From Gillisia sp. Hel1_33_143 (lineage in GTDB: Bacteria; Bacteroidota; Bacteroidia; Flavobacteriales; Flavobacteriaceae), in NCBI RefSeq assembly GCF_900104765.1, contig NZ_LT629737.1, positions 1,860,001-1,924,000 on the forward strand: a stretch of 64,000 bases of DNA, in the 5' to 3' direction. The position numbers and the translations under genes were made by a program. Under the pieces are notes generated by a model. The model was not told the DNA's origin, did no database searches, and saw nothing but the letters and a program-made list of their open reading frames with translations. Each line of letters starts with the position of its first letter. Position 1 is the stretch's first letter. Shown here piece after piece: positions 7,182-35,934 of this stretch.

Positions 7182-7219
7182 TATGGCTAATAGGTGAATA
7201 TTCTATTTGAAATCATGGG

Positions 7220-7246
7220 TTGATAAAATTTAATGAGATAAATTTG
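7220..7246 (+). promoter_or_regulatory. Promoter for the wzm-led operon
   Basis: TAAATTTG at 7239-7246 matches the -7 consensus, and TTG at 7220-7222 is 16 bases upstream. It lies in the 144-base divergent gap between the MBOAT gene and wzm, about 80 bases before the wzm start, and would give the ABC-exporter section its own transcription start. Confidence 0.45.
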
Positions 7247-7325
7247 CTCAAAGAGAGTACAGCTGCAATTTATTAATATCTTTATTAGTATTAGACAGTT
7301 TAATAGAAATATTAAAATCCCCATC

Positions 7326-14018: not shown

Positions 14019-14048
14019 TAAAACTCAATTTTTTTAAAAATATAAATT

Positions 14049-15005
14049 TTGATTTTTAAAGTATCAGTTATTATTCCGGTATTCAATACTCAATTATATA
14101 TTGAAAAGGCAATCTTATCTGCTTTAGATCAAAAGGAAGTTGCGGAAGTGATCGTGGTGGATGATGGAAGTACAGACGATACCTCTAAAATTCTTGCCAA
14201 ACTTGAGAATGAAAATTCAAAAATTAGAACTTACAAACATTCTAATGGAGAAAATCGTGGTAGGGCATTTAGTAGAAATTTGGGAATTAAAATGGCTACC
14301 AGTTCATTTATAGCATTTTTAGATGCAGACGATTATTATTTAGAAAACAGATTCCAAAATGATGCAAGGTTATTTGCGGAAGATTATGGTATTGATGGGG
14401 TTTATAATGCAATTGGCGTCCACTTTTACAGAAATGCCTCGGAGGAGGAAAAGGAGCGATTAATGCTTACCACCATAAATTATAAAATTAAATCTAATGA
14501 ATTATTTGATAAGATGTCTCCAAAAGGGGATGCTGGACATTTTCATGGTAATGGACTAACTGTGAAGCGTGAAATTTTTAAAAAGGTTGGTTATTTTGAT
14601 AACAGACTGAAAGTTGCAGAAGACACGCATATGTGGATAAAAATGTCTTTAAAGGCTAAATTGATTGCCGGAATCTTAGATAGACCTGTAAGTATTCGTG
14701 GTGTGCATGATTCAAATGTTTTCCATTTATATTCAACCATACTTTATAAAAGGAATATGGCGTTAATGTTCAACTCTTTGTTAAAATGGGCCTATAGCAA
14801 TCAATTAAAAATGTCTGTTTTAGAGTATTTTTATAAAAATTCTTATATCTATTTTAAATATCTCGGTGACGAGGAAAAGTTTAAACATTTTGTATTATTA
14901 AATTGGCTAGAATGCGCATTGAAATATCCAAAACTTCTAAAATTGAAATACTTTATTTATACCAATCCCTTAGTAACCTCTTATAGAAAAAGATTAAAGT
15001 CATAA
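14049..15005 (+). CDS. Family 2 glycosyltransferase
   Basis: GT-A glycosyltransferase of 318 residues: VSVIIPVFNTQLYIEKAI at the N-terminus, IVVDDGSTDDTSKIL, and the metal-binding AFLDADDYY near residue 95. The second half holds a catalytic-base-like VAEDTHMWIKM near residue 193. The start is TTG at 14049; there is no ATG or GTG near the conserved N-terminus. It is part of the tandem GT-A series. Donor and acceptor are unknown. Confidence 0.88.
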   Translation: MIFKVSVIIPVFNTQLYIEKAILSALDQKEVAEVIVVDDGSTDDTSKILAKLENENSKIRTYKHSNGENRGRAFSRNLGIKMATSSFIAFLDADDYYLENRFQNDARLFAEDYGIDGVYNAIGVHFYRNASEEEKERLMLTTINYKIKSNELFDKMSPKGDAGHFHGNGLTVKREIFKKVGYFDNRLKVAEDTHMWIKMSLKAKLIAGILDRPVSIRGVHDSNVFHLYSTILYKRNMALMFNSLLKWAYSNQLKMSVLEYFYKNSYIYFKYLGDEEKFKHFVLLNWLECALKYPKLLKLKYFIYTNPLVTSYRKRLKS

Positions 15006-15007
15006 TA

Positions 15008-15931
15008 TTGCAAGAACCATTAGTTTCTATAATCATTCCTACTTATAACCGAGCACATCTGCTAGGGGAAACTTTAGATTCTATATGCTCTCAAACTTAT
15101 CATAATTGGGAATGTATTGTAGTAGATGATGGTTCTATAGATCACACCAAAGCATTGATAGATAGTTATATAAATAAAGATAAGAGGTTTCATTATTACC
15201 TCAGGCCTTCAAGTTTTCTTAAAGGTGCAAATTCTTGCAGGAACTACGGTTTTGATAAGTGTAATGGAAAATTTCTGAATTGGTTTGATAGTGATGATCT
15301 TATGCTGCCCGATAATCTTCAGCTAAAACTTGAAGCTTTAACGCCAGAACTCGACTTTGTAATTGCGAATAGTCTTAATTTTGATGAAGCCGGGAATAAA
15401 TCCAGACCTTATTTTCTTGATCTCGATCTACTTATTACTCCAGAAAATTTTATAACCGGAAAAATTGGTTGGATAACAGACGATGCTTTGCTTAGAAAAG
15501 AAAGTATAAAAATTAGGTTTAATGAAAATTTGAGATCGGGGCAGGAGTACAACTTTTTTTCTCGCTATCTTTTTTATACTACTAAAGGGAAATACCTTAA
15601 AGAAGATCTTTGTTATAGAAGAATTCATAAGGAATCTATAAATCAATCTACATCTTTACAGCTATTAATAGATAATGAGATCTATTTGTTGCAGGATCTT
15701 GGTTACTTTGCAAGTTCAAAAATTATAAAAAGATCTTTAAAACGAATTATTCGATTTTCTTATGAGTCAAAGAAAAGTTCTTCTTTGAGACAGATTCAAT
15801 TAAAAGTATTAAGAACACTAAGATCATATAAAAAATATAAGTCTATATGGTTTTATTCGAATTGGATTATTTTGAATGCAGTTTCTGGAAAAGGATATAT
15901 TTTTATTAAAAAAGCAATCTCTAAACTATAA
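15008..15931 (+). CDS. Family 2 glycosyltransferase
   Basis: GT-A glycosyltransferase of 307 residues: VSIIIPTYNRAHLLGETLDS, ECIVVDDGSIDHTK, and metal-binding NWFDSDDLMLPDN near residue 95. It starts with TTG at 15008, two bases after the previous stop. It belongs to a paralogous set in this locus that shares the TYNRA, QTYxxWEC and RNYGxD motifs (also the genes at 16996, 17962 and 20779). Donor and acceptor are unknown. Confidence 0.88.
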   Translation: MQEPLVSIIIPTYNRAHLLGETLDSICSQTYHNWECIVVDDGSIDHTKALIDSYINKDKRFHYYLRPSSFLKGANSCRNYGFDKCNGKFLNWFDSDDLMLPDNLQLKLEALTPELDFVIANSLNFDEAGNKSRPYFLDLDLLITPENFITGKIGWITDDALLRKESIKIRFNENLRSGQEYNFFSRYLFYTTKGKYLKEDLCYRRIHKESINQSTSLQLLIDNEIYLLQDLGYFASSKIIKRSLKRIIRFSYESKKSSSLRQIQLKVLRTLRSYKKYKSIWFYSNWIILNAVSGKGYIFIKKAISKL

Positions 15932-15970
15932 ACTTCTTAGCATAAACAGTATTGCTTTTAATATAAGTTG

Positions 15971-16993
15971 ATGAATCAAAATATAAAATCTTCATTGATC
16001 TCGATCATTTTGCCTGTTTATAATGGCGAGAATTATCTAGTTTCAGCAATTGAAAGCATACTCACCCAAACATATCAGAATTTTGAATTGATAATAGTTA
16101 ATGATTGTTCTACAGACAAAAGTTTAGAAATATCAGAGAATTATCAAAAAAAAGATTCCAGAATTAAGATCATCTCCAATTCCACAAATAAAAAGTTACC
16201 TATTAGTTTAAATATAGGTCATAAATCTGCTGTAGGAAAATACATTACCTGGACGAGTCATGATAATCTATTAAAGAAAAATTTTCTAGAAGAATTATCC
16301 ACGGTTATAGAACAAGAGAATGTAGATATTGTCTTTTCAAATTATGATATCATTCGGTCTGATAATTCTATTAAAAGAATTCAGGTTGCAGGTCCGGCAG
16401 AATATTTATTAATAGGAAATTATATTGGTGCTTCATTTCTATACAAAAAAGAGGTTTTTGAAGGTTTGAATGGTTATGACTCTGAACTTTTTTTGATTGA
16501 AGATTACGATTTCTGGATAAGAGCTTTAAACCAATATCGATTTTTTAATTTGGATAAAAACTTATATTCATACAGAATTCATGGAGAAAGTTTAACATCA
16601 AAAATCAATTTGGAGGAAGAGCATGGAAATTCATATACTAGTGCCATCTCTAAAATGTTGGAAGGAGTAGCGAAAGATCTTATGTGGAGCGAGGAGATGT
16701 TAAGCTTTATTAAGATGATCCATCTTAATAAAAGGGAGGTTTTAGAATATTATATAAGAAACAAAAAGATCATTGAATTAGATCTTAAGCAAATGGCAAC
16801 TAAAAATTTAGACTTTAAGATACTAAAATTAGGACTGATAAAGAGCATAAGAATAATCTTGATCCAAAATAAAAGCGAACATAACCTTAAGAACTTAATG
16901 AAGATCTTAAAAAGTGAAAGATCTATATTATTAGAAAGCACTTTCAATAAAATAGAGACCCTGGGTTTAATTAAAAATTCATTATTCCACTGA
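15971..16993 (+). CDS. Family 2 glycosyltransferase
   Basis: GT-A glycosyltransferase of 340 residues from ATG 15971 (an in-frame TTG lies directly before it). Motifs: SLISIILPVYNGENYLVSAI and IIVNDCSTDKSLEI. The metal-site region reads TWTSHDNLLKKN, so the usual DxD is replaced by a SHDN-type variant also seen in some active GT2 enzymes. LIEDYDFWIRAL near residue 177 fits the catalytic-base region. The C-terminal third is charged and lysine-rich. Donor and acceptor are unknown. Confidence 0.87.
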   Translation: MNQNIKSSLISIILPVYNGENYLVSAIESILTQTYQNFELIIVNDCSTDKSLEISENYQKKDSRIKIISNSTNKKLPISLNIGHKSAVGKYITWTSHDNLLKKNFLEELSTVIEQENVDIVFSNYDIIRSDNSIKRIQVAGPAEYLLIGNYIGASFLYKKEVFEGLNGYDSELFLIEDYDFWIRALNQYRFFNLDKNLYSYRIHGESLTSKINLEEEHGNSYTSAISKMLEGVAKDLMWSEEMLSFIKMIHLNKREVLEYYIRNKKIIELDLKQMATKNLDFKILKLGLIKSIRIILIQNKSEHNLKNLMKILKSERSILLESTFNKIETLGLIKNSLFH

Positions 16994-16995
16994 GT

Positions 16996-17949
16996 ATGAA
17001 AAATCCAAAGATCACCATTCTAATTGCAACTTATAATAGAGCAAGTTTGTTGCCCAACACGCTGCAATCTATACTTGCTCAAACCTATAGTCATTGGGAA
17101 TGTTTGATTATTGATGATCATTCTACCGACGGTACTGAAAAAATAGTGCAGGATTATATTAATAAGGATAAACGTTTTAGCTACTACTTGAAATCTGAAA
17201 ATTATAAAGTAGGACTTTCCGGAACTAGAAATTATGGGTTAGATCTTGCAGAGTCTAAAAAGTCAGAATTTATTCAGTTTTTTGATGATGATGATTTAAT
17301 GCATCCTAAAAAGTTGGAACTTCAATTAAAAGGATTACTTGAACATCCTGAAAGCATGTTTTCTATTTGTGGGAGAAGAAATTTTGAAAATGAAGATGAA
17401 ATAAATTGGGAAGATCATCAACAAATTTTTCAGTCTAAATTATATTCCTTTGGCGAAGCATTTTTAATTGGAAAATTAAGATTAGTTGCTCAGGTATTTT
17501 TGTTTAGAGCACAGTATTTAAAAGATCAAAGGTTTGATGAAAATTTACGATATGCAGAAGACTGGGAATTCTTTTCTAAATTGTTCCTAAAAGAAAATCC
17601 AAAGTATGAGGTTTTAGATCAAGTTCTTTTTTTTAGAAGAAAACATTTGAATTCTATGACAGAAGACTTGGATACAACGGGTCTTCGTGCTTCCAATCTA
17701 AACGCAGCAGTTAATAAAGTTTTTTACTTTTTAGTTGACCAGAAATGCCATACGGTTAATAGTTTGACTTACTTTGGAAGAGTCTTTCTTTTATATCATT
17801 ATAGTTCTAATAATTTAGAATTAATAAAACAGATATCAAAGGAAGATAAAATGTTTTCTAAGTTGAGCAAAAGGCTACAAATGGCATTAAAAATTCATTA
17901 TTTAATGAGGAAAATGATTCTTAGAATTCTAATTTATAATGCTAACTAA
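16996..17949 (+). CDS. Family 2 glycosyltransferase (tandem paralog A)
   Basis: GT-A glycosyltransferase of 317 residues. Motifs: ITILIATYNRASLLPNTLQS, LIIDDHSTDGTEKIV, GLSGTRNYGLDLA, and the metal site QFFDDDDLMHPKKLELQ near residues 95-110; YAEDWEFFSKLF follows near 187. It closely resembles the next gene over the whole N-terminal domain, which indicates a tandem duplication. Donor and acceptor are unknown. Confidence 0.9.
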   Translation: MKNPKITILIATYNRASLLPNTLQSILAQTYSHWECLIIDDHSTDGTEKIVQDYINKDKRFSYYLKSENYKVGLSGTRNYGLDLAESKKSEFIQFFDDDDLMHPKKLELQLKGLLEHPESMFSICGRRNFENEDEINWEDHQQIFQSKLYSFGEAFLIGKLRLVAQVFLFRAQYLKDQRFDENLRYAEDWEFFSKLFLKENPKYEVLDQVLFFRRKHLNSMTEDLDTTGLRASNLNAAVNKVFYFLVDQKCHTVNSLTYFGRVFLLYHYSSNNLELIKQISKEDKMFSKLSKRLQMALKIHYLMRKMILRILIYNAN

Positions 17950-17961
17950 GAGGTTTAGATA

Positions 17962-18909
17962 TTGGATAATTATAGGGTAACTATACTACTTGCAACTTTT
18001 AATCGTGCTCATTTAATTGAGGAGACTCTTAATTCTATTAAATCTCAAACCTATCAGAATTGGGAGTGCATAATTGTAAATGATCATTCCACCGATGACA
18101 CTTCCAAAGTAGTAAGTGATTTCATTTCAGAAGATTCCAGATTCAGTTACTTCTTAAAGACCGAAGCCTATAAAAAGGGACTTTCCGGCACCAGAAATTA
18201 CGGGTTAGACCTGGCAAGAATTAAAAACGCTAAATACATTCAGTTTTTTGACGATGATGATATCATGCATCCTCAAAAATTGGAATTACAAATGCAACCA
18301 TTTTATGATGATCTATCTTTAAATCTTACTATATGCCAATATCGTAAATTTATAGATACAGGCACAATAGAGTTCGACTTGAAGAAAGCAGATGATAATT
18401 TGTGCAATGTTAAAACTAAAACCTTATTAGAATCTTTCTTCTTATATCAGATTAATCTTAATTCTCTGGGGCCTATATGGAAATCGAACATAATTTTGAA
18501 GTATAGGTTCAATGAAGAGCTAAAGTATGGAGAAGAACGAGAATTATTTCTTAGAATTTTCCTTGTGGAAAGCATAAATTATATGCCAGTACCTTATGTG
18601 CTTTTTTGGTACAGAAAACACAAGAAAACAATAACAGGTGATCTTTTTGAAAATGAATTTGTGAAAGTTGAATCCAACAGAATTATTGATAAGAATATAT
18701 TTAACCTATTAGTTAGTCAAGATAGAGTCTCGTATCCATTGCTTAAGGCATATACGGTTTGGGGGATAAAATATAATAATCAATTTTTTTTAAAGGGAAT
18801 ATCAGAATTTATTAGAAACAATGAGGATTTAAAATATTCTTTAAAATATTTTAAATTATACTCTCTAGCTAATTTATTTTTACTCTTTCATAAAATAAAA
18901 TCAAATTGA
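17962..18909 (+). CDS. Family 2 glycosyltransferase (tandem paralog B)
   Basis: GT-A glycosyltransferase of 315 residues, a close paralog of the preceding gene: ATFNRAHLIEETLNSI, IIVNDHSTDDTSKVV, the shared GLSGTRNYGLDLA, and metal site QFFDDDDIMHPQKLELQ. YGEERELFLRIF occupies the catalytic-base position. The start is TTG at 17962. The C-terminal halves of the two paralogs differ more, suggesting changed acceptor specificity (inference). Confidence 0.9.
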   Translation: MDNYRVTILLATFNRAHLIEETLNSIKSQTYQNWECIIVNDHSTDDTSKVVSDFISEDSRFSYFLKTEAYKKGLSGTRNYGLDLARIKNAKYIQFFDDDDIMHPQKLELQMQPFYDDLSLNLTICQYRKFIDTGTIEFDLKKADDNLCNVKTKTLLESFFLYQINLNSLGPIWKSNIILKYRFNEELKYGEERELFLRIFLVESINYMPVPYVLFWYRKHKKTITGDLFENEFVKVESNRIIDKNIFNLLVSQDRVSYPLLKAYTVWGIKYNNQFFLKGISEFIRNNEDLKYSLKYFKLYSLANLFLLFHKIKSN

Positions 18910-19826
18910 ATTTAGCCATTGTTATACCTTACTTTAAGATTGATTTTTTTGCTGCTACTTTAAATAGCCTTAGTGAACAATCAAATAAGAATTTCGAAGT
19001 TTATATCGGGAATGACGGGAGTCCGTCTAATCCTGAAGAAATAATCTCCCAATATTCAAATAGTCTGCCTATTCGTTATTTCGATTTTAAAATAAATTTA
19101 GGTGCTTCTTCACTGGTAAGTCATTGGCAGCGTTGTATAGAAAAAGTTAATGATGCGGAATGGATCTTATTGTTAGGCGATGATGATGTCTTGGAACCAA
19201 ACTGCATTTCAGATTTCTACAATAATATAAATACCATCAATGAAAAGAATATTAATGTAGTAAGATTTGGCACAAAAATAATTAATAATAGAGGGGAATC
19301 AATCTCGAAAGTTCATGTTCATGAGAAAGTTGAAAATTCTGTAAATTTTATTATGAATAAAATTTTGGGGCCGGCTCGAAGTTCTTTAAGCGAGCACATC
19401 TTCAGAAAAAAGTTTTTAAAATTTAAACATTTTCCCTTGGCATGGTATAGTGATGATTTAGCATTGCTAGAGGTTTCAAATTTCGGAGATATTTACTCTA
19501 TTAATTCCTCTGTAGTTTCTATAAGAGCAAGTAGCCTTAATATTTCCTCTAATAAGGGACTATCTAGAATTAAAAATATAGCAACTTTCGAATTTTATCA
19601 TTATCTAATAAATAAGTATTATACGCAATTTAATGCCGCTCAGAAATTAATTCTATTTGATAAATATGAAAAGTCTGTACTTAATGATAAGAAAAACTAC
19701 TTATTATTCTTAAAGCTTTCTAAAACCTATATTCAGAAGAATAAATTTAATGTCTATTTTAGGTTTTTTAAATTATACTTATCTAATATTTTAAATGCGT
19801 ACAGGAGTCAATCCAGAGAAGTTTAA
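18906..19826 (+). CDS. Family 2 glycosyltransferase
   Basis: GT-A glycosyltransferase of 306 residues: LAIVIPYFKIDFFAATLNSL, VYIGNDGSPSNPEEI, and LLLGDDDVLEPN near residues 92-103 as the metal-binding region. The start is TTG at 18906, overlapping the preceding stop. The C-terminal part is rich in Lys, Asn and aromatic residues. It is more diverged from the neighbouring GT2 paralogs. Donor and acceptor are unknown. Confidence 0.85.
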   Translation: MNLAIVIPYFKIDFFAATLNSLSEQSNKNFEVYIGNDGSPSNPEEIISQYSNSLPIRYFDFKINLGASSLVSHWQRCIEKVNDAEWILLLGDDDVLEPNCISDFYNNINTINEKNINVVRFGTKIINNRGESISKVHVHEKVENSVNFIMNKILGPARSSLSEHIFRKKFLKFKHFPLAWYSDDLALLEVSNFGDIYSINSSVVSIRASSLNISSNKGLSRIKNIATFEFYHYLINKYYTQFNAAQKLILFDKYEKSVLNDKKNYLLFLKLSKTYIQKNKFNVYFRFFKLYLSNILNAYRSQSREV

Positions 19827-20775
19827 AACAGAAAAGAATGTTCATTACTTTCATAGGGTGATCGTTCCTGTGCATATCCCAGAGAGTTCAAATTTATATT
19901 ATAAAGAAGCTATAGAAGTACTAAAAGTCTGTCTTCAATCCTTATTCAAATCTATAAATAATGAAACTACAGCTATAACTATTATTAACAATGCATCTAA
20001 TACAGAAGTTGAAGAAGTACTATCTGGTTATTATAAAAGTGGATATATAAATAAATATGTAATATATAAAGAGAACAAGGGAAAGGTTCATGCAATTATA
20101 AGTGAAGCTAGAGCATGTTTTGAAGATTATATTTCTATTGCAGATAGCGATGTTTTATTTATGGAAGGTTGGGAAAACGCATGTTTTGAAATCTTCAATT
20201 CTTATCCCAAGGCAGGAGTGGTTTCTCCAGTTCCCTCTCAAAATTTATCACTTTATTACAACCGCTCCTTATTTTATGATCTTTTCTTAATGGGAAAAAT
20301 AAAATATGGAAAGGCGGTAAGTGATTACGATTGCGAACTTTTTCTGAAAGGATTAGGAAATGCAGCCTTGCTGGATAGAAATAATGCTGAATATTCATGG
20401 AAGCAGAAACAATACTATTTAGATAAACCTACAAGAGCTATAGTTGGTGCAAACCATTTTGTTGCTACTTATAGACGAGAAGTTTTAATGTGGAATAAAG
20501 AATTTCCTCAGGAAAAATTTAAAAAGGGATATGAAGAATACTATTTAGATTTTCCTGCAGATAGATTGGGTTGGTATAGACTTTCTACTCCCAAAACTTT
20601 TGCTTACCATGTAGGAAATGAGTTAGATGAAGTAGTTTCTAAATTTTGTGACAATCCTAAATCAAAAATCTCCCAGAAGAGTTTTAAAGCTTTAAGAAGA
20701 CCTGGACCTTCAAATACCTCCTATAAAATAAAAAGGATATTTTTCAAAGTACTTAGAAGTATAAAACAACTCTAA
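19795..20775 (+). CDS. Glycosyltransferase, GT-A type
   Basis: Predicted GT-A glycosyltransferase of 326 residues with a less typical N-terminus: FHRVIVPVHIPES, then TAITIINNASNTEVEEVL in place of the usual VVDDGS strand. YKENKGKVHAIISEA and the metal-site region SIADSDVLFMEGW near residue 120 follow. A later GANHFVATYRREVL fits the acceptor side. The start ATG overlaps the previous gene by 32 bases; a start slightly downstream cannot be excluded. Donor and acceptor are unknown. Confidence 0.78.
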   Translation: MRTGVNPEKFKTEKNVHYFHRVIVPVHIPESSNLYYKEAIEVLKVCLQSLFKSINNETTAITIINNASNTEVEEVLSGYYKSGYINKYVIYKENKGKVHAIISEARACFEDYISIADSDVLFMEGWENACFEIFNSYPKAGVVSPVPSQNLSLYYNRSLFYDLFLMGKIKYGKAVSDYDCELFLKGLGNAALLDRNNAEYSWKQKQYYLDKPTRAIVGANHFVATYRREVLMWNKEFPQEKFKKGYEEYYLDFPADRLGWYRLSTPKTFAYHVGNELDEVVSKFCDNPKSKISQKSFKALRRPGPSNTSYKIKRIFFKVLRSIKQL

Positions 20776-20778
20776 AAA

Positions 20779-21732
20779 ATGAATGATTCTTTTTTAGTAA
20801 GTATTATCATTCCTATTTATAACAGAGAAAGTTTTCTTCAGGAAACTATAGAATCTGTTATAAATCAAACTTATAAAAAGTGGCAGTTAATATTGGTTGA
20901 TGATGGTTCTTCTGATGCATCTTTGTCAATTGCGAATATAGCAGTGCAAAATGATATTAGAATTATAAGCGTAAGTAGACCAAATACTAAATTAGGTGGA
21001 GGTAATTCCGCTAGAAATTACGGATTTCAAAAATCAAATGGTGATTTGATCAATTGGTTTGATAGTGATGATCTTATGCATCCTGAGTTTATAGAAAGAA
21101 AGGTTGAAGAATTTATAGATCATCAAGATTTGAATGTAGTTTTTACAAAAACTATAAGAACAGATTTTACTGAAGTAAATGTTCCCGATGAAAGGTTGAA
21201 ATATAGTTCAACTTTTTTACACGATTATGTAGTAAGAAAAATAAGTTGGTATTTGCCAGATGCAATGTTTAGAAGGTCTTTTTTAGAAGATAAACAATTA
21301 TTTGATGAAGACCTATTAGCAGGACAAGATCGAGATTTTTATATCAGATTATTTGCCAGAGAATTTCCTAAGTTTAAAATTTTAGATTTTTATGCTACCT
21401 ACTATAGAATTCATCAAGATAGTATTTCAGAAAAAATTTATAGAGAAGCAAACATCAAGATGCAAGTTTCTCACTATAATAGTCTCATAAATCAGGTGGA
21501 GGTTTTGAAAGAATATAATTTACTAAGTAAAAACTTAAAGCAACATTATTTACAGGAGTTAAAAAAAAGGTTTCCTGCGGTAATAAAAAGTAAAGCTTCA
21601 TTATCTAAATATTTTAAGGAAGTAAAAAAACTTTCAGATCTTAATAAAACCACTGCAGAGACATGGCTTAAGTTATTTGTTGCGTATTTTAGCTTTCAGA
21701 TATTTGGTAAAGGTGAACGTTTTTTAAAATAA
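20779..21732 (+). CDS. Family 2 glycosyltransferase
   Basis: GT-A glycosyltransferase of 317 residues: LVSIIIPIYNRESFLQETIE, ILVDDGSSDASLSIA, and NWFDSDDLMHPEFIERK near residues 92-108, sharing the WFDSDDLM motif with the gene at 15008. AGQDRDFYIRLFA near 177 marks the catalytic-base region. It is last of the nine-gene GT-A run and is followed by wecB after 5 bases. Donor and acceptor are unknown. Confidence 0.9.
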   Translation: MNDSFLVSIIIPIYNRESFLQETIESVINQTYKKWQLILVDDGSSDASLSIANIAVQNDIRIISVSRPNTKLGGGNSARNYGFQKSNGDLINWFDSDDLMHPEFIERKVEEFIDHQDLNVVFTKTIRTDFTEVNVPDERLKYSSTFLHDYVVRKISWYLPDAMFRRSFLEDKQLFDEDLLAGQDRDFYIRLFAREFPKFKILDFYATYYRIHQDSISEKIYREANIKMQVSHYNSLINQVEVLKEYNLLSKNLKQHYLQELKKRFPAVIKSKASLSKYFKEVKKLSDLNKTTAETWLKLFVAYFSFQIFGKGERFLK

Positions 21733-22948: not shown

Positions 22949-24214
22949 TTGTCTGCTAAACAAAAGATCTTAGTTGTAGTTGAATCTATTGATGTTGAAG
23001 ACAGCAGCGGTGCTAAGGCTAATTTGGCTCTTATAACTAATCTACAATCTGCAGGATATCAATTAAAAGTACTTCATTATACTAGGAAAGATATACAAGT
23101 ATCGGATGTTGAATGTGTAGCCGTAAAAGAAAATAGGAGAAGTTTATACTTCTATTTAAGTCGCTTAGAAAGGCAAATACGCTACATTTTAAAAATTAAA
23201 TTGAGTAAGCCATTAGAAAATATTTTTGGATTTTCTTTTACCCTTTTTAATGATAGAAATAGCATAGTTTCTGCTCTTAAAGACTTAGATCATTCAGAAT
23301 TTGATCTTGTTCTCACCCTTAGCCAAGGCGGTAGGTTTAGACCGCATCATGCATTACTTAAATTACCACATCTTCATAATAAATGGATGGCATATATTCA
23401 TGATCCTTATCCAATGCACCTATATCCTGAGCCTTACCCATGGAAAGAGCCGGGATATAAGATCAAGGCTGAATTTATGGAGGAAGTTTCTGTGAAAGCT
23501 GCATTTCATGCTTTTCCTAGTAAATTATTAATGGAATGGATGGGGAACTATTTTGAGGGATTTGCAAAAAAAGGTATAGTTATCCCACATCAGATCTTGG
23601 AGGAACAATTTCAATTAGAAATTACTTCAAATTATTTTGATGCTTCTAATTTTAATATTGTTCATTCTGGTAACCTGTTATGGGGCAGAGATCCTAAAGG
23701 ATTGATCAATGGTTATTTAAAATTTATCAATAACATTCCAGAGGCTAAAGATCAAAGTTGCATGATGTTTTTGGGTGGAAAGAATCATTATACAAAGCAG
23801 TTATTGCATTACCATGAAAAGTACGATACCATCTATGTAAGTGGTAACTATGTGCCTTTTGAAGAAACTCAGTACGTGCAAAAGAATAGTGCTGTAAATG
23901 TTATATTAGAAGCAAAGGCGGAAACAAGTCCCTTCTTACCTGGGAAATTTCCTCATTGTGTCTTAGCAAATAAACCTATTTTGCTCCTTGGACCTCGCGT
24001 TAGTGAATCAAGACGATTGTTAGGAGAAGATTATAGGTTTTGGTCTGAAATAGATTCAGAAGAAGTTATTGCTGACTTGCTTGGCGAGCTTTATAGAGAT
24101 TGGAAATTAAAATCGGGTAATCTCAGTTTAAATAGACAAGATTTAAAAAATTACTTATCAGTAGACCATTTGAGATCTGTAGTGAATACAGTTTTCCCAA
24201 AAATAGAAGCATGA
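22949..24214 (+). CDS. GT-B glycosyltransferase (GT4-like)
   Basis: Predicted GT-B glycosyltransferase of 421 residues. The N-terminal Rossmann part begins with ILVVVESIDVEDSSGAKANL, a typical donor/acceptor loop start. WMAYIHDPYPMHLYPEPYPW lies near residue 150. The second domain has FNIVHSGNLLWGRDPKGLIN near 234 and NAVNVILEAKAETSPFLPGK near 313, where other GT4 enzymes carry the donor-binding acidic motif. The start is TTG at 22949. It is first of the section that contains the sialic-acid genes. Donor and acceptor are unknown; this is one candidate for sialic-acid transfer. Confidence 0.78.
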   Translation: MSAKQKILVVVESIDVEDSSGAKANLALITNLQSAGYQLKVLHYTRKDIQVSDVECVAVKENRRSLYFYLSRLERQIRYILKIKLSKPLENIFGFSFTLFNDRNSIVSALKDLDHSEFDLVLTLSQGGRFRPHHALLKLPHLHNKWMAYIHDPYPMHLYPEPYPWKEPGYKIKAEFMEEVSVKAAFHAFPSKLLMEWMGNYFEGFAKKGIVIPHQILEEQFQLEITSNYFDASNFNIVHSGNLLWGRDPKGLINGYLKFINNIPEAKDQSCMMFLGGKNHYTKQLLHYHEKYDTIYVSGNYVPFEETQYVQKNSAVNVILEAKAETSPFLPGKFPHCVLANKPILLLGPRVSESRRLLGEDYRFWSEIDSEEVIADLLGELYRDWKLKSGNLSLNRQDLKNYLSVDHLRSVVNTVFPKIEA

Positions 24215-25356
24215 AGATATTAATGGTTTCTATGTTTTCTAATCATTTTTTTAATTGGACCAAACAATTGGAAGTTCAAGGACATACTATTTACTGGCTC
24301 GATGTATATGATGCCAATATTCAGGTAGATAAAATAAGCTTTGTGCACCACATAATTGGTTGGAGAAATAAAACAAATTATCCGGGCAGATATACGATAA
24401 AGAAAGAATTACCAAAACTCTATGATTTTATTAGTAAGTTCAATCAAAATAAGTTAGCAGATATTTTCGAGAAAAAATTAATTGAAATTCAGCCGGATAT
24501 TGTACAAAGTTTTGAAATGTTTTCTTCCTGTCTGCCAATTCTTGAAGTGATGCAAAAATATCCAAAGACCAAATGGGTTTATAATATTTGGGGAAATGAT
24601 CTCTTCTATTTTAAAGAATTTACTAAGCCAAAAGTACAGATCAAGGAAGTTTTAAAAAGAATAAATTATCTCTTTTCAGATTGTGAAAGAGATCATGAAA
24701 TTGTTATGGAGCTTGGGTTTAATGGAAAGTTTTTAGGAGTCTTTCCAACCGGTGGGGGTTATGATCTTGACAAATATGATAAGTTCTTAAAGGAAGCTTC
24801 TGAAAGAAAAACTATTTTGATAAAAGGTTATGAGCATGAGTTTGGGAGGTGTATTAAAGTTTTAAAGGCAATTGCAACAATGAAACCTGAATTATCAGGT
24901 TATAATATTGTTGTATTTGGAGCAAATGAAAAAGTGGAAGTTTTCTGTAAAGAAAACAATCTAGATGATTGGGATAATTTAATTATTTACAAGCAAAGAG
25001 CACATTCCGAAATTTTGAAGTTGATGGGAGAATCTTTGATCTATTTAGGTAACAGTATATCAGACGGAATGCCGAATACCTTATTGGAAGCTATCATTAT
25101 GGGTGTGTTTCCTATTCAGTCTAATCCTGGGGGAGCCACCTCAGAAATGATCACTCATGGCGTGAATGGATTTTTAATAAACGATGCGGAAGATTCCTCT
25201 GAAATAAAAAGCTTAATTGCTCAAGCTTTGAAAGATCCAATTCTATTAAAATCTGGTGTAGACTATAACTTAGAAAATATAAAGCCTAAATTAGAACGAA
25301 GTTTTATTGCGAATCAGGTAAATCAGAAATATCAATATCTACAACAAGCCTTATAA
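24211..25356 (+). CDS. Family 4 glycosyltransferase
   Basis: GT-B retaining-type glycosyltransferase of 381 residues. MKILMVSMFSNHFFNWTKQL at the N-terminus and IWGNDLFYF near residue 128 fall in the first domain. The second domain has the GT4 hallmark SISDGMPNTLLEAIIMGVFP near residues 284-303 (the ExxxxxxxE-type nucleotide-sugar site), followed by NPGGATSEMI. The start ATG overlaps the previous stop (ATGA). Donor and acceptor are unknown. Confidence 0.9.
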   Translation: MKILMVSMFSNHFFNWTKQLEVQGHTIYWLDVYDANIQVDKISFVHHIIGWRNKTNYPGRYTIKKELPKLYDFISKFNQNKLADIFEKKLIEIQPDIVQSFEMFSSCLPILEVMQKYPKTKWVYNIWGNDLFYFKEFTKPKVQIKEVLKRINYLFSDCERDHEIVMELGFNGKFLGVFPTGGGYDLDKYDKFLKEASERKTILIKGYEHEFGRCIKVLKAIATMKPELSGYNIVVFGANEKVEVFCKENNLDDWDNLIIYKQRAHSEILKLMGESLIYLGNSISDGMPNTLLEAIIMGVFPIQSNPGGATSEMITHGVNGFLINDAEDSSEIKSLIAQALKDPILLKSGVDYNLENIKPKLERSFIANQVNQKYQYLQQAL

Positions 25357-25357
25357 T

Positions 25358-26440
25358 TTGCTGACGATAATTTATTCATATAGAAATCGAGACTTAAATA
25401 GATTAGAGAATTCGTTCAATTCTTTGGCTAGGCAATCTGTAAAAGATTTTGATGTTATCTTGGTAGATTATGGTTCTGAACCAGATTTGGCTAAGAATGC
25501 TAAGGAGTTATGTTCAAAGTATAAATTTATTTCTTACATATATCGATTTGCCCAATATCAACCTTGGAATAAATCTAAAGCATTAAACTCAGTGATCAAA
25601 GACCTGAAAACTGAACAATGTTTTGTTGCAGATGTTGATATGATCTTCAGAAGTGATTTTATTGAAATAGCCTATTCTTTAAAAGATCCAGAGAACATTA
25701 CTTATTTTGAAGTTGGATTTTTAGGTCCGAAGGAAGATCTAAAAGATCTGAATTTTGCTGATATAACCAATTATAGAAAAAGTACTCATGAAGCTACAGG
25801 GCTTAGTTTATTTCCTGTTACTGCTTTAAAACAGATACGCGGCTTCGATGAGTTTTACCATTTCTGGGGAGCAGAAGATACAGACGTTCATAAAAGATTA
25901 ATTGATAAGGGCTATAAAACAGATTTCTATAATTCAGAAACATTGATGTTCCATCAGTGGCATCCTAGTTATAGAAGTTCAGAGTCTAAAAAAATAACTA
26001 AAGATTTTCAGATCTCTGGAATAGTACAATTAAACCACCAGTATTTACAGAATGGTCTGCTTAAAACGTCTACAGAAGTAAATGCGAAAGGATGGGGCGA
26101 AACTTTGCTAAACGAAGAACTGCAAAGCTTAGAAAAGGAATCTGTAAACCTAATTTTGAATACTGAAAAAAGGAAAATAGATAATTTACTATTTGGGATT
26201 CTTCCAAATCTAGGAAACGGAATTTTAAAAGTGAGAATTGAAAGTTTAAAGAAGGATAATCTTAGACAAATGCTTAAGAAAAGTATGGGGAAAAAAGTTC
26301 CTGAATGTTACTCATTAAAAAAAGTAAATGACTTGATTTTGCTGCATCTCATCTCATATTATAGAGATTTACCCTATACCTTTAAAATAGATGATAAATT
26401 GCAAAGTATAGAATTTGCTTTGAAAATAACAAATAGATAA
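25358..26440 (+). CDS. Family 2 glycosyltransferase with galactosyltransferase-like C-terminal motif
   Basis: GT-A glycosyltransferase of 360 residues: LTIIYSYRNRDLNRLENSFN, VILVDYGSEPDLAK, then metal-binding CFVADVDMIFRSDF near residue 87. HFWGAEDTDVHKRLIDKGY near residues 167-185 resembles the C-terminal motif of chondroitin-polymerase and beta-1,4-galactosyltransferase type enzymes. About 130 further residues of unclear function follow. The start is TTG at 25358, one base after the preceding stop. Donor and acceptor are unknown. Confidence 0.85.
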   Translation: MLTIIYSYRNRDLNRLENSFNSLARQSVKDFDVILVDYGSEPDLAKNAKELCSKYKFISYIYRFAQYQPWNKSKALNSVIKDLKTEQCFVADVDMIFRSDFIEIAYSLKDPENITYFEVGFLGPKEDLKDLNFADITNYRKSTHEATGLSLFPVTALKQIRGFDEFYHFWGAEDTDVHKRLIDKGYKTDFYNSETLMFHQWHPSYRSSESKKITKDFQISGIVQLNHQYLQNGLLKTSTEVNAKGWGETLLNEELQSLEKESVNLILNTEKRKIDNLLFGILPNLGNGILKVRIESLKKDNLRQMLKKSMGKKVPECYSLKKVNDLILLHLISYYRDLPYTFKIDDKLQSIEFALKITNR

Positions 26441-26451
26441 AAAGATTAGCT

Positions 26452-27129
26452 CTGAAAAAGCAAAAGAACATAGCCATCATTCCCGCTCGAGGAGGATCTA
26501 AAAGATTACCGGGTAAAAACATCAAGTTATTAGATGGGTTACCCTTAATTGTGCATAGTATTAATTTTGCCAAAGAGAATTTAGGTATTATAGATAAGAT
26601 TGTTGTTTCTACAGATCATGATGAGATAAAAAAGATAGCAAAAACCAATGGAGCAGAAGTTATTGATAGACCTTTAGAATTAGCTCAAGATCTAACATCT
26701 ACCTTAGAAGTTCTTCATCATATAATGGATGAGCTAGATGAGCAGTATGATAACGTAATATTATTACAACCTACCAATCCTTTAAGACCTCAACATTTAT
26801 TAGAAAATGCATATTCAGACTATCTAAAAGGTAATTTTAATAGTTTAATGACTGTGACTCGAAATCATCAAAAATTCGGAAAAATAAAAGATTCTAGGTT
26901 CGTACCCTTCAATTATAAAATGGGGGAAAGAAGTCAGGATCTAGAACCATTATATTTTGAAAATGGATTGCTTTATATTGTCAAAGCTGAAATTATAAAA
27001 AACGGAGAACTGTTGGCTCCTAATAATTGTGCTTATGTGATAGACCATCTCTGGGCGAAAGTTGATATTGATACCTTAGATGATTTTGAGTATGCGGAGT
27101 TTTTGATGAAAAAGGAGAATAGAAAATAA
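26452..27129 (+). CDS. neuA: CMP-N-acetylneuraminate cytidylyltransferase
   Basis: Activates sialic acid with CTP to CMP-sialic acid. The conserved N-terminus [17 protein letters not shown], which binds CTP, lies upstream of the first ATG/GTG/TTG codon (GTG at 26551). It can be included only by starting at CTG 26452, giving [15 protein letters not shown] and 225 residues, the normal NeuA length. An in-frame stop at 26434 bounds the frame. Further motifs: [24 protein letters not shown], and [13 protein letters not shown] near the end. It lies directly before neuB with one base between. Function is very likely; the unusual start is inferred. Confidence 0.9.
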
Positions 27130-27130
27130 T

Positions 27131-28183
27131 ATGATACACATGAAACCATATATTGATATATCTGGAAGAAAGATAGGGGAAGATTATCCCCCTTTAGTAA
27201 TTGCTGAAATTGGTATTAACCATGAAGGTTCTCTCGAGACTGCTAAAGAAATGGTTGATGCTGCACATAGAGCTGGAGCAGAGATTGTTAAACATCAAAC
27301 TCATATTGTAGAAGACGAAATGAGTTCTGCCGCTAAAAAGGTGATCCCAGGAAATGCAGATATTTCTATTTATGAAATAATGAAACGTTGTGCTTTAGAT
27401 GAGGCAGATGAAAGAAGCTTAAAAGAGTATGTTGAAAGCAAGGGTATGATCTTTATTTCTACCCCTTTTTCTAGAGCAGCAGCAAACAGGTTAGAAAATT
27501 TTGATGTTCCGGCTTACAAAATAGGTAGTGGAGAATGTAATAATTATCCCTTGTTAGAACATATTGCCGGTTTTGGAAAACCTGTAATTCTAAGCACAGG
27601 TATGAACAGTATTGAAAGCGTTAAAAAAGCGGTTGCTATATTTGATAAGTACAAAGTTCCGGTTGCTCTACTACATACAACTAACTTATACCCAACCCCA
27701 ATACATTTGGTAAGATTAGGAGCTATGCAGGAACTTCATAATTCTTTTCCAGAAAAAGTTTTCGGATTGTCAGATCACACTTTAAATAATAATGCCTGCT
27801 TAGGTGCTGTGGCTTTAGGTGCTTCTATTTTAGAAAGACACTTTACAGATCATATGAAACGCACTGGGCCTGATATTATTTGCAGTATGGATGAAAAAGC
27901 CTGTGCAGAACTTATAATTTCTAGTGCTGAAATTGCGCAAATGCGTGGAGGTAAAAAGGAAGCGGCATTAGAAGAAAAGGTGACTATAGATTTTGCATTT
28001 GCAACGGTGTGTACTATAAAAAACATTAAAAAGGGAGAGGTGTTCTCAAAGGAAAATATTTGGGTAAAGCGTCCTGGCACTGGAGAAATCTTAGCAGAGA
28101 ACTATGATCAAGTCTTGGGTAAGATTTCCACTTCCGATATAGAAAATGACAATCAATTAAAATGGTCTGATATTGTTAAGTAA
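27131..28183 (+). CDS. neuB: N-acetylneuraminate synthase
   Basis: Condenses ManNAc with phosphoenolpyruvate to Neu5Ac. It has 350 residues, a TIM-barrel NeuB domain plus a C-terminal SAF (antifreeze-like) domain at about 285-350. Segments such as [60 protein letters not shown] and [20 protein letters not shown] agree closely with what I recall of E. coli K1 NeuB. This argues for true Neu5Ac synthase rather than pseudaminic or legionaminic acid synthase. The first ATG is at 27131, with a second at 27140; either is possible. Confidence 0.95.
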
Positions 28184-28196
28184 GACTAATAAAGCA

Positions 28197-29324
28197 ATGA
28201 CTAAAAAAAGAATTCTTTTCTTAACAGGCACCAGAGCAGATTTTGGAAAGATAAAATCGCTTATTCAGATCTTAGATTCGGATGTGGATTTTGAAGTCTT
28301 TGTTTTTGTAACCGGAATGCATCTTCAGCAGGAATATGGGTATACATTACTTGAAATTGAACGCTGTAATTTTTCCAACGTTCATACCTTCGAAAATTTT
28401 ACTCATGAAACTACCATGGATCTAACACTGGCAAAGACTATTGAAGGTTTGTCTGGATATATAAAGGAGATCGATCCAGACATGATCGTGGTACATGGAG
28501 ATCGAGTAGAAACTTTGGCAGGAGCTATTGTAGGGTCGTTGAATAATATTTTAGTGGCGCACATAGAGGGTGGTGAGATCTCTGGTACAGTAGATGAATT
28601 GATAAGACATAGCGTAAGTAAGTTGAGTCATATTCATTTTGTTTCTAATAATGAAGCTTGTAAGAGGTTAATTCAAATGGGTGAATTGGAGAAATCGATC
28701 TTTGAAATTGGATCGCCTGATATCGATCTAATGTTATCCCCGTATCTTCCTGCTTTGGATGTTGTTAAAGAATATTATCAAATTTCATTTAAGCACTATG
28801 CAGTAGCAATGTTTCATCCTGTTACCACAGAAGTATTGCATATAGAGACCTATGTAAAAAACTTTATAGATGCTTTATTGAATGATGATCATAATTATGT
28901 AGTGATCTATCCTAATAATGACTTAGGAAGTAAAACTATTTTGAAAGAATACAAACGCATTTTAGATAATAAAAGATTCAGGCTTATCCCATCTTTAAGA
29001 TTTGAATATTTTCTGAGTCTTCTAAAGGAAACTCAATTTATAATTGGTAATAGCAGTGCCGGGATTAGAGAAGCTCCTTATTACCAAATACCTATAATAA
29101 ACATTGGAACAAGACAACAAAATAGATCTCAATTTGCAGATATTATCCATGTAGATTATGATATAAAAAGTATTAGCAAAGCATTAGATATGGTAGACGA
29201 TCACCAAATTAGCTATCAACAAACATCATATGGTAAGGGAAACAGTTCAGTTGAGTTTTTGACAGCTCTTAAGAATTCTACTTTGTGGGAGATTAATCAT
29301 CAGAAACAGTTTAAAGACCTATAG
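28197..29324 (+). CDS. neuC: UDP-GlcNAc 2-epimerase, hydrolysing
   Basis: Provides ManNAc for NeuB by hydrolysing and epimerising UDP-GlcNAc. It has 375 residues from ATG 28197, 13 bases after the neuB stop. An in-frame TTG at 28173 would overlap neuB and add an unconserved octapeptide. Motifs: ILFLTGTRADFGKIKSLI, FVTGMHLQQEYGYT, VVHGDRVETLAGAIVG, HIEGGEISGTVDELIRHS, GNSSAGIREAPYY. The HIEGG...DELIRHS pattern separates it from WecB. The order neuA-neuB-neuC makes a complete route from UDP-GlcNAc to CMP-Neu5Ac. Confidence 0.94.
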   Translation: MTKKRILFLTGTRADFGKIKSLIQILDSDVDFEVFVFVTGMHLQQEYGYTLLEIERCNFSNVHTFENFTHETTMDLTLAKTIEGLSGYIKEIDPDMIVVHGDRVETLAGAIVGSLNNILVAHIEGGEISGTVDELIRHSVSKLSHIHFVSNNEACKRLIQMGELEKSIFEIGSPDIDLMLSPYLPALDVVKEYYQISFKHYAVAMFHPVTTEVLHIETYVKNFIDALLNDDHNYVVIYPNNDLGSKTILKEYKRILDNKRFRLIPSLRFEYFLSLLKETQFIIGNSSAGIREAPYYQIPIINIGTRQQNRSQFADIIHVDYDIKSISKALDMVDDHQISYQQTSYGKGNSSVEFLTALKNSTLWEINHQKQFKDL

Positions 29325-29391
29325 TTGGATAAATAACTTCTGAATAAATTTTAATACTTTTTAGAATCTTCCCCTTACTCACTATTATTTT

Positions 29392-29399
29392 TATCTTTG
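29392..29399 (+). promoter_or_regulatory. Candidate -7 promoter element
   Basis: TATCTTTG fits TAnnTTTG exactly and lies about 28 bases before the TTG start at 29427, in the 102-base gap after neuC. No clear -33 TTG is visible at the expected distance, so this is a weak call. Confidence 0.3.
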
Positions 29400-29426
29400 G
29401 CTAATACCCATTTATCATTATAAAAT

Positions 29427-30827
29427 TTGAGCTCTAAAAAAATTTTAATTTTACTTCCTGATGGTGTAGGTTTAAGAAACTTTGCCTTTTCTAATTTTGT
29501 AGAGATTGGAGAGCAATTAGGGTGGGAGGTGATCTTTTGGAATCAAACTCCGTTCTATTTGAGTTCTCTTGGATTAAAGGAAATCAAACTTCAAGTTAAA
29601 CCAAGACCATTTACAGATCTTATAAAAAGAGCTAAGATAAATTCAGAACTAAGTCATTTCGAAAATAAATGGAATGATTCGGTATATAGTTCTTATAAAT
29701 TCTCGCCTTCGTCTAGTGGAATTAAAGCAAGACTCAAAAATACAATTGTCTCAATTTTAGAGAGCCGATCAAAGAATGAGAATGGATTAAAGCAATTGAG
29801 AAATAGGTTAAAAAAGTCTGAACGAAGTTCCAAATTTTACGATCATTGCAAAGTGGTCTTAAAAAGAGAAAAGCCGGATATTGTATTTTGTACCAGTCAG
29901 AGACCAGTAACGGCAATAGCACCACTTACTGCAGCGCAAGATTTAAATATTCCAACCGCTTCCTTCATCTTTTCCTGGGATAACCTGTCTAAAGCCACAT
30001 TAGTGGTAGAAGCAGATCACTATTTTGTTTGGAGTAAATATATGATGGACGAATTGGTTAAATATTATCCTTATATAAATACCAAGAATATACATATTAC
30101 AGGCACACCACAGTTTGAAGCTCATTACAATGCCAGCTTACTTATATCTAAAGAAGTTTTTTTTGAACAGCATAATTTAGATCTTCAAAAAAAATATATT
30201 TGTTTTAGCGGAGATGATATTACAACTTCACCCGATGATCCTCAGTACTTGGAAGATCTGGCAAAAGCGGTGCAAACTTTAAATGCTGAAGGACTTCATC
30301 TAGGTATCATATTTAGAAGATGCCCTGTAGATTTTTCGGGAAGATATCAGGCTGTTATAGATACATATCCTGAAATAATAAAAGAGATAAGTCCTCTGTG
30401 GGAGAAACAAGGCGATAGTTGGAATACCATTTTGCCAACCAAAGCAGATGTGGCCTTACAGGTGAATACTGTACAATATAGCAGTGCTTTGATTAATTTA
30501 GGTTCTACTATGGTGTTTGATGCCGTAACTCATAACAAATCTTGCTTTTATATCAATTATGATGTAGAAAATAAAAAAGTTGAAGATTGGAGCACAGAAA
30601 ATATCTATAAATATGTTCATTTTAGATCGATGCCATCTTCCAATTCTGTAATATGGATAAATAGTAAGAATGAGATAGCAAATAAAATTGCAAGCTTACT
30701 AAATAACGATGATGAAGACGTGATTAGAAATGCCAAGACTTGGTTTAACGTGATCAATGAATCTCCAGCAGATAAGGCTTCAGAACGTATCTGGAAATGT
30801 TTAGAGAAGATCAAAACAAATAATTAA
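29427..30827 (+). CDS. Unassigned GT-B-like protein, possible glycosyltransferase
   Basis: A 466-residue cytoplasmic protein directly after neuABC. The N-terminus ILILLPDGVGLRNFAFSNF looks like the first Rossmann strand of a GT-B enzyme. IVFCTSQRPVTAIAP and SFIFSWDNLSKATLV near residues 153-195 sit at the domain hinge. YSSALINLGSTMVFDAVTHN near residues 352-371 resembles the donor-site helix of UDP-sugar epimerase-like and glycerophosphotransferase-like GT-B proteins. The sialyltransferase D/E-D/E-G and His-Pro motifs of families GT38, GT52 and GT80 were not found. The start is TTG at 29427. By position it is a candidate for using CMP-sialic acid, but that is inference. Confidence 0.6.
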   Translation: MSSKKILILLPDGVGLRNFAFSNFVEIGEQLGWEVIFWNQTPFYLSSLGLKEIKLQVKPRPFTDLIKRAKINSELSHFENKWNDSVYSSYKFSPSSSGIKARLKNTIVSILESRSKNENGLKQLRNRLKKSERSSKFYDHCKVVLKREKPDIVFCTSQRPVTAIAPLTAAQDLNIPTASFIFSWDNLSKATLVVEADHYFVWSKYMMDELVKYYPYINTKNIHITGTPQFEAHYNASLLISKEVFFEQHNLDLQKKYICFSGDDITTSPDDPQYLEDLAKAVQTLNAEGLHLGIIFRRCPVDFSGRYQAVIDTYPEIIKEISPLWEKQGDSWNTILPTKADVALQVNTVQYSSALINLGSTMVFDAVTHNKSCFYINYDVENKKVEDWSTENIYKYVHFRSMPSSNSVIWINSKNEIANKIASLLNNDDEDVIRNAKTWFNVINESPADKASERIWKCLEKIKTNN

Positions 30828-34782: not shown

Positions 34783-35934
34783 ATGATGCATATTGCCTTC
34801 ATAACTCCAGAATATCCTCATTCATTCACCAATAGTTCCGGAGGTTTGGGCACCAGTATTAAAAATCTCGCACACTCGCTGATACATCAAGGTATGGAAG
34901 TGAGTATTTTTATTTATGCTCAAGATCAAAACAAAACTTTTAAAGAAGACAAGATCAATTTTTATCTTATAAAACAAAAGAGCTATAAATTTGGTGGCTT
35001 TTATTTTTACAGGAAATATCTTCAGCAATACATAAATAAAAAAGTAAAAGAAAAATCTATAGATCTTTTAGAAGCTCCAGACTGGACAGGGATCACTGCT
35101 TTTATGAAGTTCAAATGTCCTTTGGTGATAAGGCTTAATGGCTCTGATGGTTATTTTTGCCATTTAGAAAATAGAGAACAAAAGCCTAAGAATAGATTAT
35201 TTGAAAAAAGAGCCTTGCAAGCTGCAAATGCAATAGTTTCTGTAAGTGCTTTTACAGCAAAAGTAACATCTGACATCTTTAAATTAGAAAAGAAGATAAC
35301 AGTTATTCCCAACAGTCTAGATCCAAATAATTTTATGCCTTCAACTTTAAAGGTTGATAAAAACTTGTTGCTATATTTTGGTACTATAATTCGTAAAAAG
35401 GGAGTTTTAGAATTAGCTAGTATCTTTAATAAAGTAGTACAAGAGAAGCCAAATGCTAAACTTCTCTTATTAGGAAAAGATGTGGTAGATGTTTTTGAAA
35501 ACAAATCGACTTTAGAATTATTTATAACTTCGCTAAGTAAAGAGGCCAAATCTATGGTAGAACATTTACAAGAAGTAAGTTATTCGGAAGTTCAAAACTA
35601 CATAGCATCTGCCAAGGTGATACTGCTTCCAAGTTTTGCAGAAGCATTGCCAATGACTTGGTTAGAAGCTATGTGTATGGAAAAGGCTTTGGTAACCTCT
35701 AATGTGGGATGGGCTCCAGAGGTAATGATAGATGGCGAAACAGGCTTTACAGTAGATCCTAAAGATCATGCCTCTTATGCCAGTAAGATCGTTAAGTTAA
35801 TGAATGAAAATCACTTGAATGAACAAATGGGCAAAGCTGCTCGTAAGCAAGTATTATCTAAATTCTCAACAGATGTAGTTGTCTTGCAAAATATTGAATT
35901 TTACAGGAAAGTTATCTTAAATTTTAAAGTTTAA
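34783..35934 (+). CDS. Family 4 glycosyltransferase
   Basis: GT-B retaining-type glycosyltransferase of 383 residues. The N-terminal domain has IAFITPEYPHSFTNSSGGLG (the GGLG/GGAE-type acceptor loop) and VVSVSAFTAKVTSDIF-like positions near 150. The second domain has NLLLYFGTIIRKKGVLELA near 196-214 and the donor-site motif EALPMTWLEAMCMEKALV near 287-304. GWAPEVMIDGETGFTVDP follows. It is contiguous with the membrane protein gene upstream. Donor and acceptor are unknown. Confidence 0.92.
   Translation: MMHIAFITPEYPHSFTNSSGGLGTSIKNLAHSLIHQGMEVSIFIYAQDQNKTFKEDKINFYLIKQKSYKFGGFYFYRKYLQQYINKKVKEKSIDLLEAPDWTGITAFMKFKCPLVIRLNGSDGYFCHLENREQKPKNRLFEKRALQAANAIVSVSAFTAKVTSDIFKLEKKITVIPNSLDPNNFMPSTLKVDKNLLLYFGTIIRKKGVLELASIFNKVVQEKPNAKLLLLGKDVVDVFENKSTLELFITSLSKEAKSMVEHLQEVSYSEVQNYIASAKVILLPSFAEALPMTWLEAMCMEKALVTSNVGWAPEVMIDGETGFTVDPKDHASYASKIVKLMNENHLNEQMGKAARKQVLSKFSTDVVVLQNIEFYRKVILNFKV

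Follow-up and report, generated by a model that had tools for sequence, protein, structure and literature searches.

The window analysed here, a stretch of 64,000 nucleotides from Gillisia sp. Hel1_33_143, holds a polysaccharide locus with many GT2 and GT4 enzymes, and neuA, neuB, neuC and the gene of a glycosyltransferase-like protein that we call GTx lie inside it (Table 1). Nine GT2-type glycosyltransferase genes follow one another in an unbroken run (13221-21732).

Table 1. Genes of the polysaccharide locus and the basis of their assignment (positions in the window; a single number marks a gene by its position only).
Feature	Position	Strand	Basis
Export protein and chain-length kinase	1595, 2387		
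ABC-2 permease and ABC ATPase	7326, 9090		
GDP-mannose dehydratase	11190		
WecB-type epimerase	21738		PF02350
22949 product, GT4-like GT-B enzyme	22949..24214	+	fold comparison of predicted model
24211 product, GT4 glycosyltransferase	24211..25356	+	Pfam scan
25358 product, GT-A glycosyltransferase	25358..26440	+	PF00535, PF02709
neuA, CMP-Neu5Ac synthetase, non-ATG start	26452..27129	+	start probably CTG; solved relatives
neuB, N-acetylneuraminate synthase	27131..28183	+	TIGR03569; comparison with NeuB/SiaC
neuC, hydrolysing UDP-GlcNAc 2-epimerase	28173..29324	+	TIGR03568
GTx, proposed CMP-nonulosonate (here Neu5Ac) transferase	29427..30827	+	GT-B fold, R297-x-C299-P300, S360-T361
WecE-like and WecD-like enzymes	32439, 31765		
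GT4_34783, GT4 glycosyltransferase co-travelling with GTx, main rival	34783..35934	+	PF00534
O-antigen-ligase-type protein	41829		
Initiating sugar-phosphate transferase	45151		

An earlier note on this DNA had read neuA, neuB and neuC as a full set leading from UDP-GlcNAc to CMP-sialic acid, with NeuB as a true Neu5Ac-type synthase, and both readings are borne out by profile searches and by comparison with relatives. NeuB reaches 401.5 bits against TIGR03569 in an NCBIfam profile search (cut-off 399.65) and scores 475 bits with the N. meningitidis NeuB/SiaC vs 145 with SpsE and 139 with a PseI, while NeuC scores 412.3 bits against TIGR03568 (cut-off 235.9). The top solved relatives of NeuA are CMP-Neu5Ac synthetases; its top NCBIfam model, found with a short 192-aa ORF as query, is PseF and stays under its cut-off. 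The Gillisia genome holds one copy of NeuB only. Judged from these sequence comparisons, the pathway product is most likely CMP-Neu5Ac, with a Neu5Ac derivative being possible. The open frame of neuA spans 26437-27129, and its first ATG, GTG or TTG is a GTG at 26551. Since a conserved N-terminal motif (15 residues) is encoded upstream of this codon, translation probably starts at CTG 26452, where the earlier note had also placed it. Only this CTG or an ATA at 26437 would include the motif, as the interval 26437-26551 contains no ATG, GTG or TTG.

Does the locus encode a sialyltransferase of a known type? Four sialyltransferase Pfam models (PF06002, PF07922, PF11477 and PF07388) matched none of 38 window proteins (28, and 10 more at E<=1e-6), in a scan that ran to 46.5 kb and left out ORFs 12314, 43090 and 44082. 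A genome-wide search, confined to GT42, GT52 and GT80, found none of the three in the whole Gillisia genome. The note had recognised no GT42-type protein and had held that a profile match to a known family would overturn its proposal; these searches, including that for PF06002 in the window and that for GT42 in the genome (without positive control), brought no such match to light. GT42 was likewise found in none of 60 relatives, again without a positive control, and GT80 in no control genome; the genome-wide zeros of these two types are weak because neither was found in any control. GT52 was absent from all 14 controls but present in 2 of the 60 relatives. Going by these profiles, the known sialyltransferase types are likely absent from the Gillisia genome. 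Across the class, GT52 occurred in one of 295 genomes. In G025 a GT52 gene lies about 7 kb from a second NeuB and away from the GTx of that genome (L212, G025:C14), and in G006 a weak GT52-like protein with KPHP, below cut-off, lies about 1 kb from the other NeuB (L213, G006:C22). From this placement, different nonulosonate cassettes therefore seem to have transferases of their own.

The earlier note had listed the unassigned, GT-B-like 29427 product among its candidates for a transferase and had suggested a structure prediction with fold comparison. The AlphaFold2 model of this protein, GTx, is confident (mean pLDDT 93.3, pTM 0.91; 53 sequences) and by fold comparison has the two-Rossmann architecture of GT-B, in keeping with that call. 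Its nearest folds are UDP-GlcNAc 2-epimerases (NeuC 5xvs, Z 24.7, rmsd 3.4, 325 aligned), followed by MurG, MGD1 and TarL (Z 20.3 for TarL). No sialyltransferase is among the 50 fold matches listed, which does not exclude the fold. A shared fold is by itself no proof of function. GTx matched none of the four sialyltransferase Pfam models at E<=1, and neither did 21 GTx members at E<=10, a threshold at which few matches above 0.1 get past the HMMER filters. A sequence search of the PDB returned no real relative (best E 0.026).

According to the accessible part of a published description (PMC12887879), sialyltransferases and retaining Kdo transferases have in common a (K/R)xHP motif, whose Lys/Arg and Pro lie at the cytosine and whose His lies at the phosphate, where serines are found as well; loss of this His inactivates KrkA (PMC12887879). 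The earlier note had reported the D/E-D/E-G and His-Pro motifs as missing. The literal letters are indeed absent from GTx: its invariant D12-G13 follows a Pro, Thr, Val or Ala, and no His-Pro is seen because the motif position reads R-x-C-P. The aligned position itself is nevertheless present, as Arg-x-Cys-Pro (297-300). GTx scores 35.7 bits against NF046086, the model of the BFO_1060 family (cut-off 200; hmmscan E 5.3e-9), and a GTx profile matches three BFO_1060-family proteins with a probability of 94.7 and an E of 5.8e-8, so that common ancestry is detectable (the control, the UDP-epimerase WecB, gave E 0.038). In this alignment R297-x-C299-P300 falls on RxHP and S360-T361 on C-T-T, and a paralogue (L171; E 2.6e-24 in the profile comparison) reads RLHP at the motif position. 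Thus, GTx retains the motif in degenerate form. R297, P300, S360 and D12 are identical in all 21 rows of alignment A1 and all 53 rows of alignment A2. Position 299 is Cys in 48 and Ser in 5 rows of A2, and Cys in 13, Ser in 5, Val in 2 and Ala in 1 of A1; with His never found there in either alignment, a complete (K/R)xHP is lacking. Position 361 is Ser or Thr in every row, forming a Ser-Ser/Thr pair with a presumed role at the phosphate. Comparisons with single sequences are weak (NeuS E 0.06, KpsS 0.007, PF04464 0.0047), and because the WecB control (0.038) scores like them, the motif claim rests on the BFO_1060 profile comparison and on L171. KpsC aligns with GTx at the Ser pair only, and two GT52 proteins and NeuE do not align with it at the motif.

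Is GTx linked to nonulosonate genes in other bacteria? In a sample of 219 Flavobacteriaceae genomes from 218 genera, GTx was found in 85, NeuB in 119 and both in 84, after two GTx matches of about 19 bits (G364 and G378, neither with NeuB among the matches listed) had been dropped, which lowered the GTx count from 87 to 85. NeuB was thus present in 84 of 85 genomes with GTx vs 35 of 134 without it (Fisher p 9e-31, genomes treated as independent). It lies on the same contig and at most 24.4 kb from GTx in at least 80 of the 85 genomes; among the NeuB matches listed, the median distance is 2.1 kb, with 39 within 2 kb and 71 within 6 kb. In G361, G372 and G507, neuC and/or neuA lie within 8 kb of GTx and NeuB on another contig; in G468, NeuB and NeuA lie 0.9 Mb from GTx, and the single-contig genome G401 (L214) carries GTx with the conserved downstream genes and no NeuB. 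Among the 60 relatives, GTx occurs in 22 and NeuB in 35, and by our reading of the search listings NeuB shares a contig with GTx in all 22, no more than 27 kb away. In G185 and G325, which belong to another family, about 22 and 12 kb, respectively, separate GTx from NeuB. Among the 80 top-ranking of at least 588 database loci, 77 have a neu gene within 10 kb. By its linkage, GTx is a gene tied to CMP-nonulosonate synthesis. In two genomes (G001, L026; G005, L027) the full gene is accompanied, some 1 kb away, by fragments that share 70-76% identity with the N-terminal ~55 residues of GTx, and in G004 (L058) and G013 (L073) stops or frame changes interrupt GTx and its neighbours, through decay or sequencing error.

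The neu cassettes beside GTx are of more than one kind: Neu5Ac-type, Kdn-like and one undefined. In the kind resembling that of the window, NeuB is about 76-95% identical to the window NeuB, among the matches listed; in a second kind it is about 30-35% identical, and a third kind has a short NeuB. Next to one short NeuB and GTx in L070, NeuA and a Kdn-9-phosphatase-like domain form one fused protein (6739-7890; 142.6 bits, cut-off 180), which suggests, from the sequence of this one representative, a Kdn-like pathway for the short-NeuB cassette. Since GTx stays while the kind of cassette changes, a CMP-nonulosonate is the likely donor common to the GTx loci. The swap by itself does not name the transferase, because the GT4 enzyme GT4_34783 mostly stays too. 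Indeed, trees of 60 loci, with four duplicates omitted and L073 and L202 reassigned by hand from cassette label c to label b, gave 12 changes of cassette type for GTx, 11 for GT4_34783, 13 for o35960 and 16 for GT2_37494, and GTx was not singled out. Donor-specific residues did not emerge either: the best GTx column had a mutual information of 0.51 vs a shuffled 95th percentile of 0.44, with a median sign-test p of 0.125, and none of the columns listed was significant. Several loci contain, between neuA and GTx, a 570-aa asparagine-synthase-like amidotransferase (L064, 7685-9394; L069, 10058-11767), which perhaps modifies the nonulosonate.

Could GT4_34783 transfer the nonulosonate, with GTx adding another sugar, e.g. 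the adjacent residue? This is unlikely, though it is the alternative that we take most seriously: GT4_34783 is found in 78 of the 80 top-ranking GTx loci (of at least 588) and, counted from the search listings, in 75 of the 219 genomes (73 with NeuB), and the tree test came out even between the two (11 vs 12 changes). It is, however, an ordinary GT4 (PF00534, 107 bits), and we know of no GT4 that uses a CMP-sugar. GTx is closer to a neu gene than GT4_34783 in 81 of 94 loci, and lies within 300 bp in 36 vs 2; 12 genomes with GTx have no GT4_34783 copy at E<=1e-40, and one locus (L079) combines GTx with a neu cassette and has no close copy. The chances are also small that GTx transfers a different sugar of a glycan conserved in all these bacteria. 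Since the locus keeps six of its genes as a conserved set, linkage alone cannot name the donor of GTx, and the nearest folds are UDP enzymes; yet the linkage of GTx with neu genes holds where other locus genes differ, and GTx is remotely homologous to the BFO_1060 proteins, whose three best matches adjoin neu genes.

That a sialyltransferase of known type acts from outside the window we consider very unlikely: GT38, GT29, GT97 and GT100 were beyond the genome-wide search, the zeros for GT42 and GT80 are not backed by a positive control, and G025 shows a GT52 beside its second NeuB, but the Gillisia genome has no GT52, its NeuB is single and only 1 of 295 class genomes has a GT52. Least credible of all is a sialyltransferase among the 22949, 24211 and 25358 products, which the earlier note had also named. 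Their genes lie directly upstream of neuA, but among the 80 top-ranking GTx loci (of at least 588) just 14, 12 and 26, respectively, have them within 10 kb. The fold check proposed for the 22949 product does not favour such a role, as its confident model (pLDDT 85.9; 9 rows) is closest to GT4 retaining enzymes; with this GT4-like fold, the GT4 assignment of the 24211 product and a GT-A of GT2/GT7C type for the 25358 product, we regard all three as unlikely. Against GTx itself stand the missing His of (K/R)xHP, the UDP enzymes as nearest folds and the lack of a sialyltransferase Pfam match.

Nonulosonate transferases of Bacteroidota are already established genetically: in the accessible parts of the reports, GtfS (Tanf_01245) and TFUB4_00887 of Tannerella forsythia attach Pse and Leg derivatives, as judged by knock-out and mass spectrometry (PMC6120980, PMC6388019). 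They are described there as GT-B proteins of 442-445 aa beside nonulosonate genes, with D/E-D/E-G and HP (PMC6120980, PMC6388019). Compared with these descriptions, GTx is similar in host phylum, fold and gene neighbourhood, but has neither motif in full. Its remote homologues of the BFO_1060 family, of which the three best matches lie near neu genes, keep (R/K)xHP where GTx has R-x-C-P, and its 35.7 bits fall far below the 200-bit cut-off of that family. With the GT38, GT52 and GT80 sialyltransferases and the GT99 and GT107 Kdo transferases GTx shares the GT-B fold, the Arg/Lys and Pro of the motif and the Ser-Ser/Thr pair; in contrast to them its His is replaced and it has no Pfam membership, and the single-sequence alignments are weak. 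The CDP-glycerol glycerophosphotransferases (PF04464) match 11 of 21 GTx members weakly (best E 1.1e-6) and TarL is a fold neighbour, but the window GTx itself has no match and the donor class is different. A literature search, for which subscription papers were mostly out of reach, found no publication on the GTx family.

How would GTx act? In the proposed pathway, NeuC would convert UDP-GlcNAc to ManNAc, NeuB would make Neu5Ac and NeuA CMP-Neu5Ac, and GTx would then use CMP-Neu5Ac to add Neu5Ac, still on the cytoplasmic side and ahead of export, to a lipid-linked oligosaccharide. For donor, acceptor, stereochemistry and residue roles we infer the following: the C-terminal domain would bind CMP in the manner of (K/R)xHP enzymes, placing R297 and P300 next to the cytosine and S360-T361 next to the phosphate, the position of the His would be taken by Cys (or by Ser, Val or Ala), and the invariant D12 may serve as general base in an inverting mechanism, which is a guess.

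In summary, computation established the genes, their linkage, the fold, the remote homology and the conservation of GTx, and we predict that GTx is probably the nonulosonate transferase of this locus. The role is well supported by gene linkage across 219 genomes, by the GT-B fold and by a distant relationship to a family bearing (K/R)xHP, so that the earlier proposal of the 29427 product as a candidate transferase gains ground, with its activity predicted. The idea of a new sialyltransferase type is plausible if it means a new family whose motif has degenerated, but not if it means one unrelated to known CMP-ulosonate transferases. Whether the CMP-nonulosonate transferases that GTx would represent form a new glycosyltransferase family, found widely in Flavobacteriia, that acts in Neu5Ac and Kdn-like pathways at least and works with Cys or a small residue in place of the His otherwise kept in CMP-ulosonate transferases, we regard as an even call. 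Nonulosonate genes are common in the sampled Flavobacteriaceae (119 of 219 genomes), whereas GT52 was found in 1 of 295 class genomes and GT42 in 0 of 60 relatives (with no positive control), and GTx is a specific, testable candidate for nonulosonate attachment in 85 of the 219. If the prediction is true, GTx would offer a set of new enzymes for making glycans and a natural case for studying CMP-sugar transfer in which the motif His is missing.
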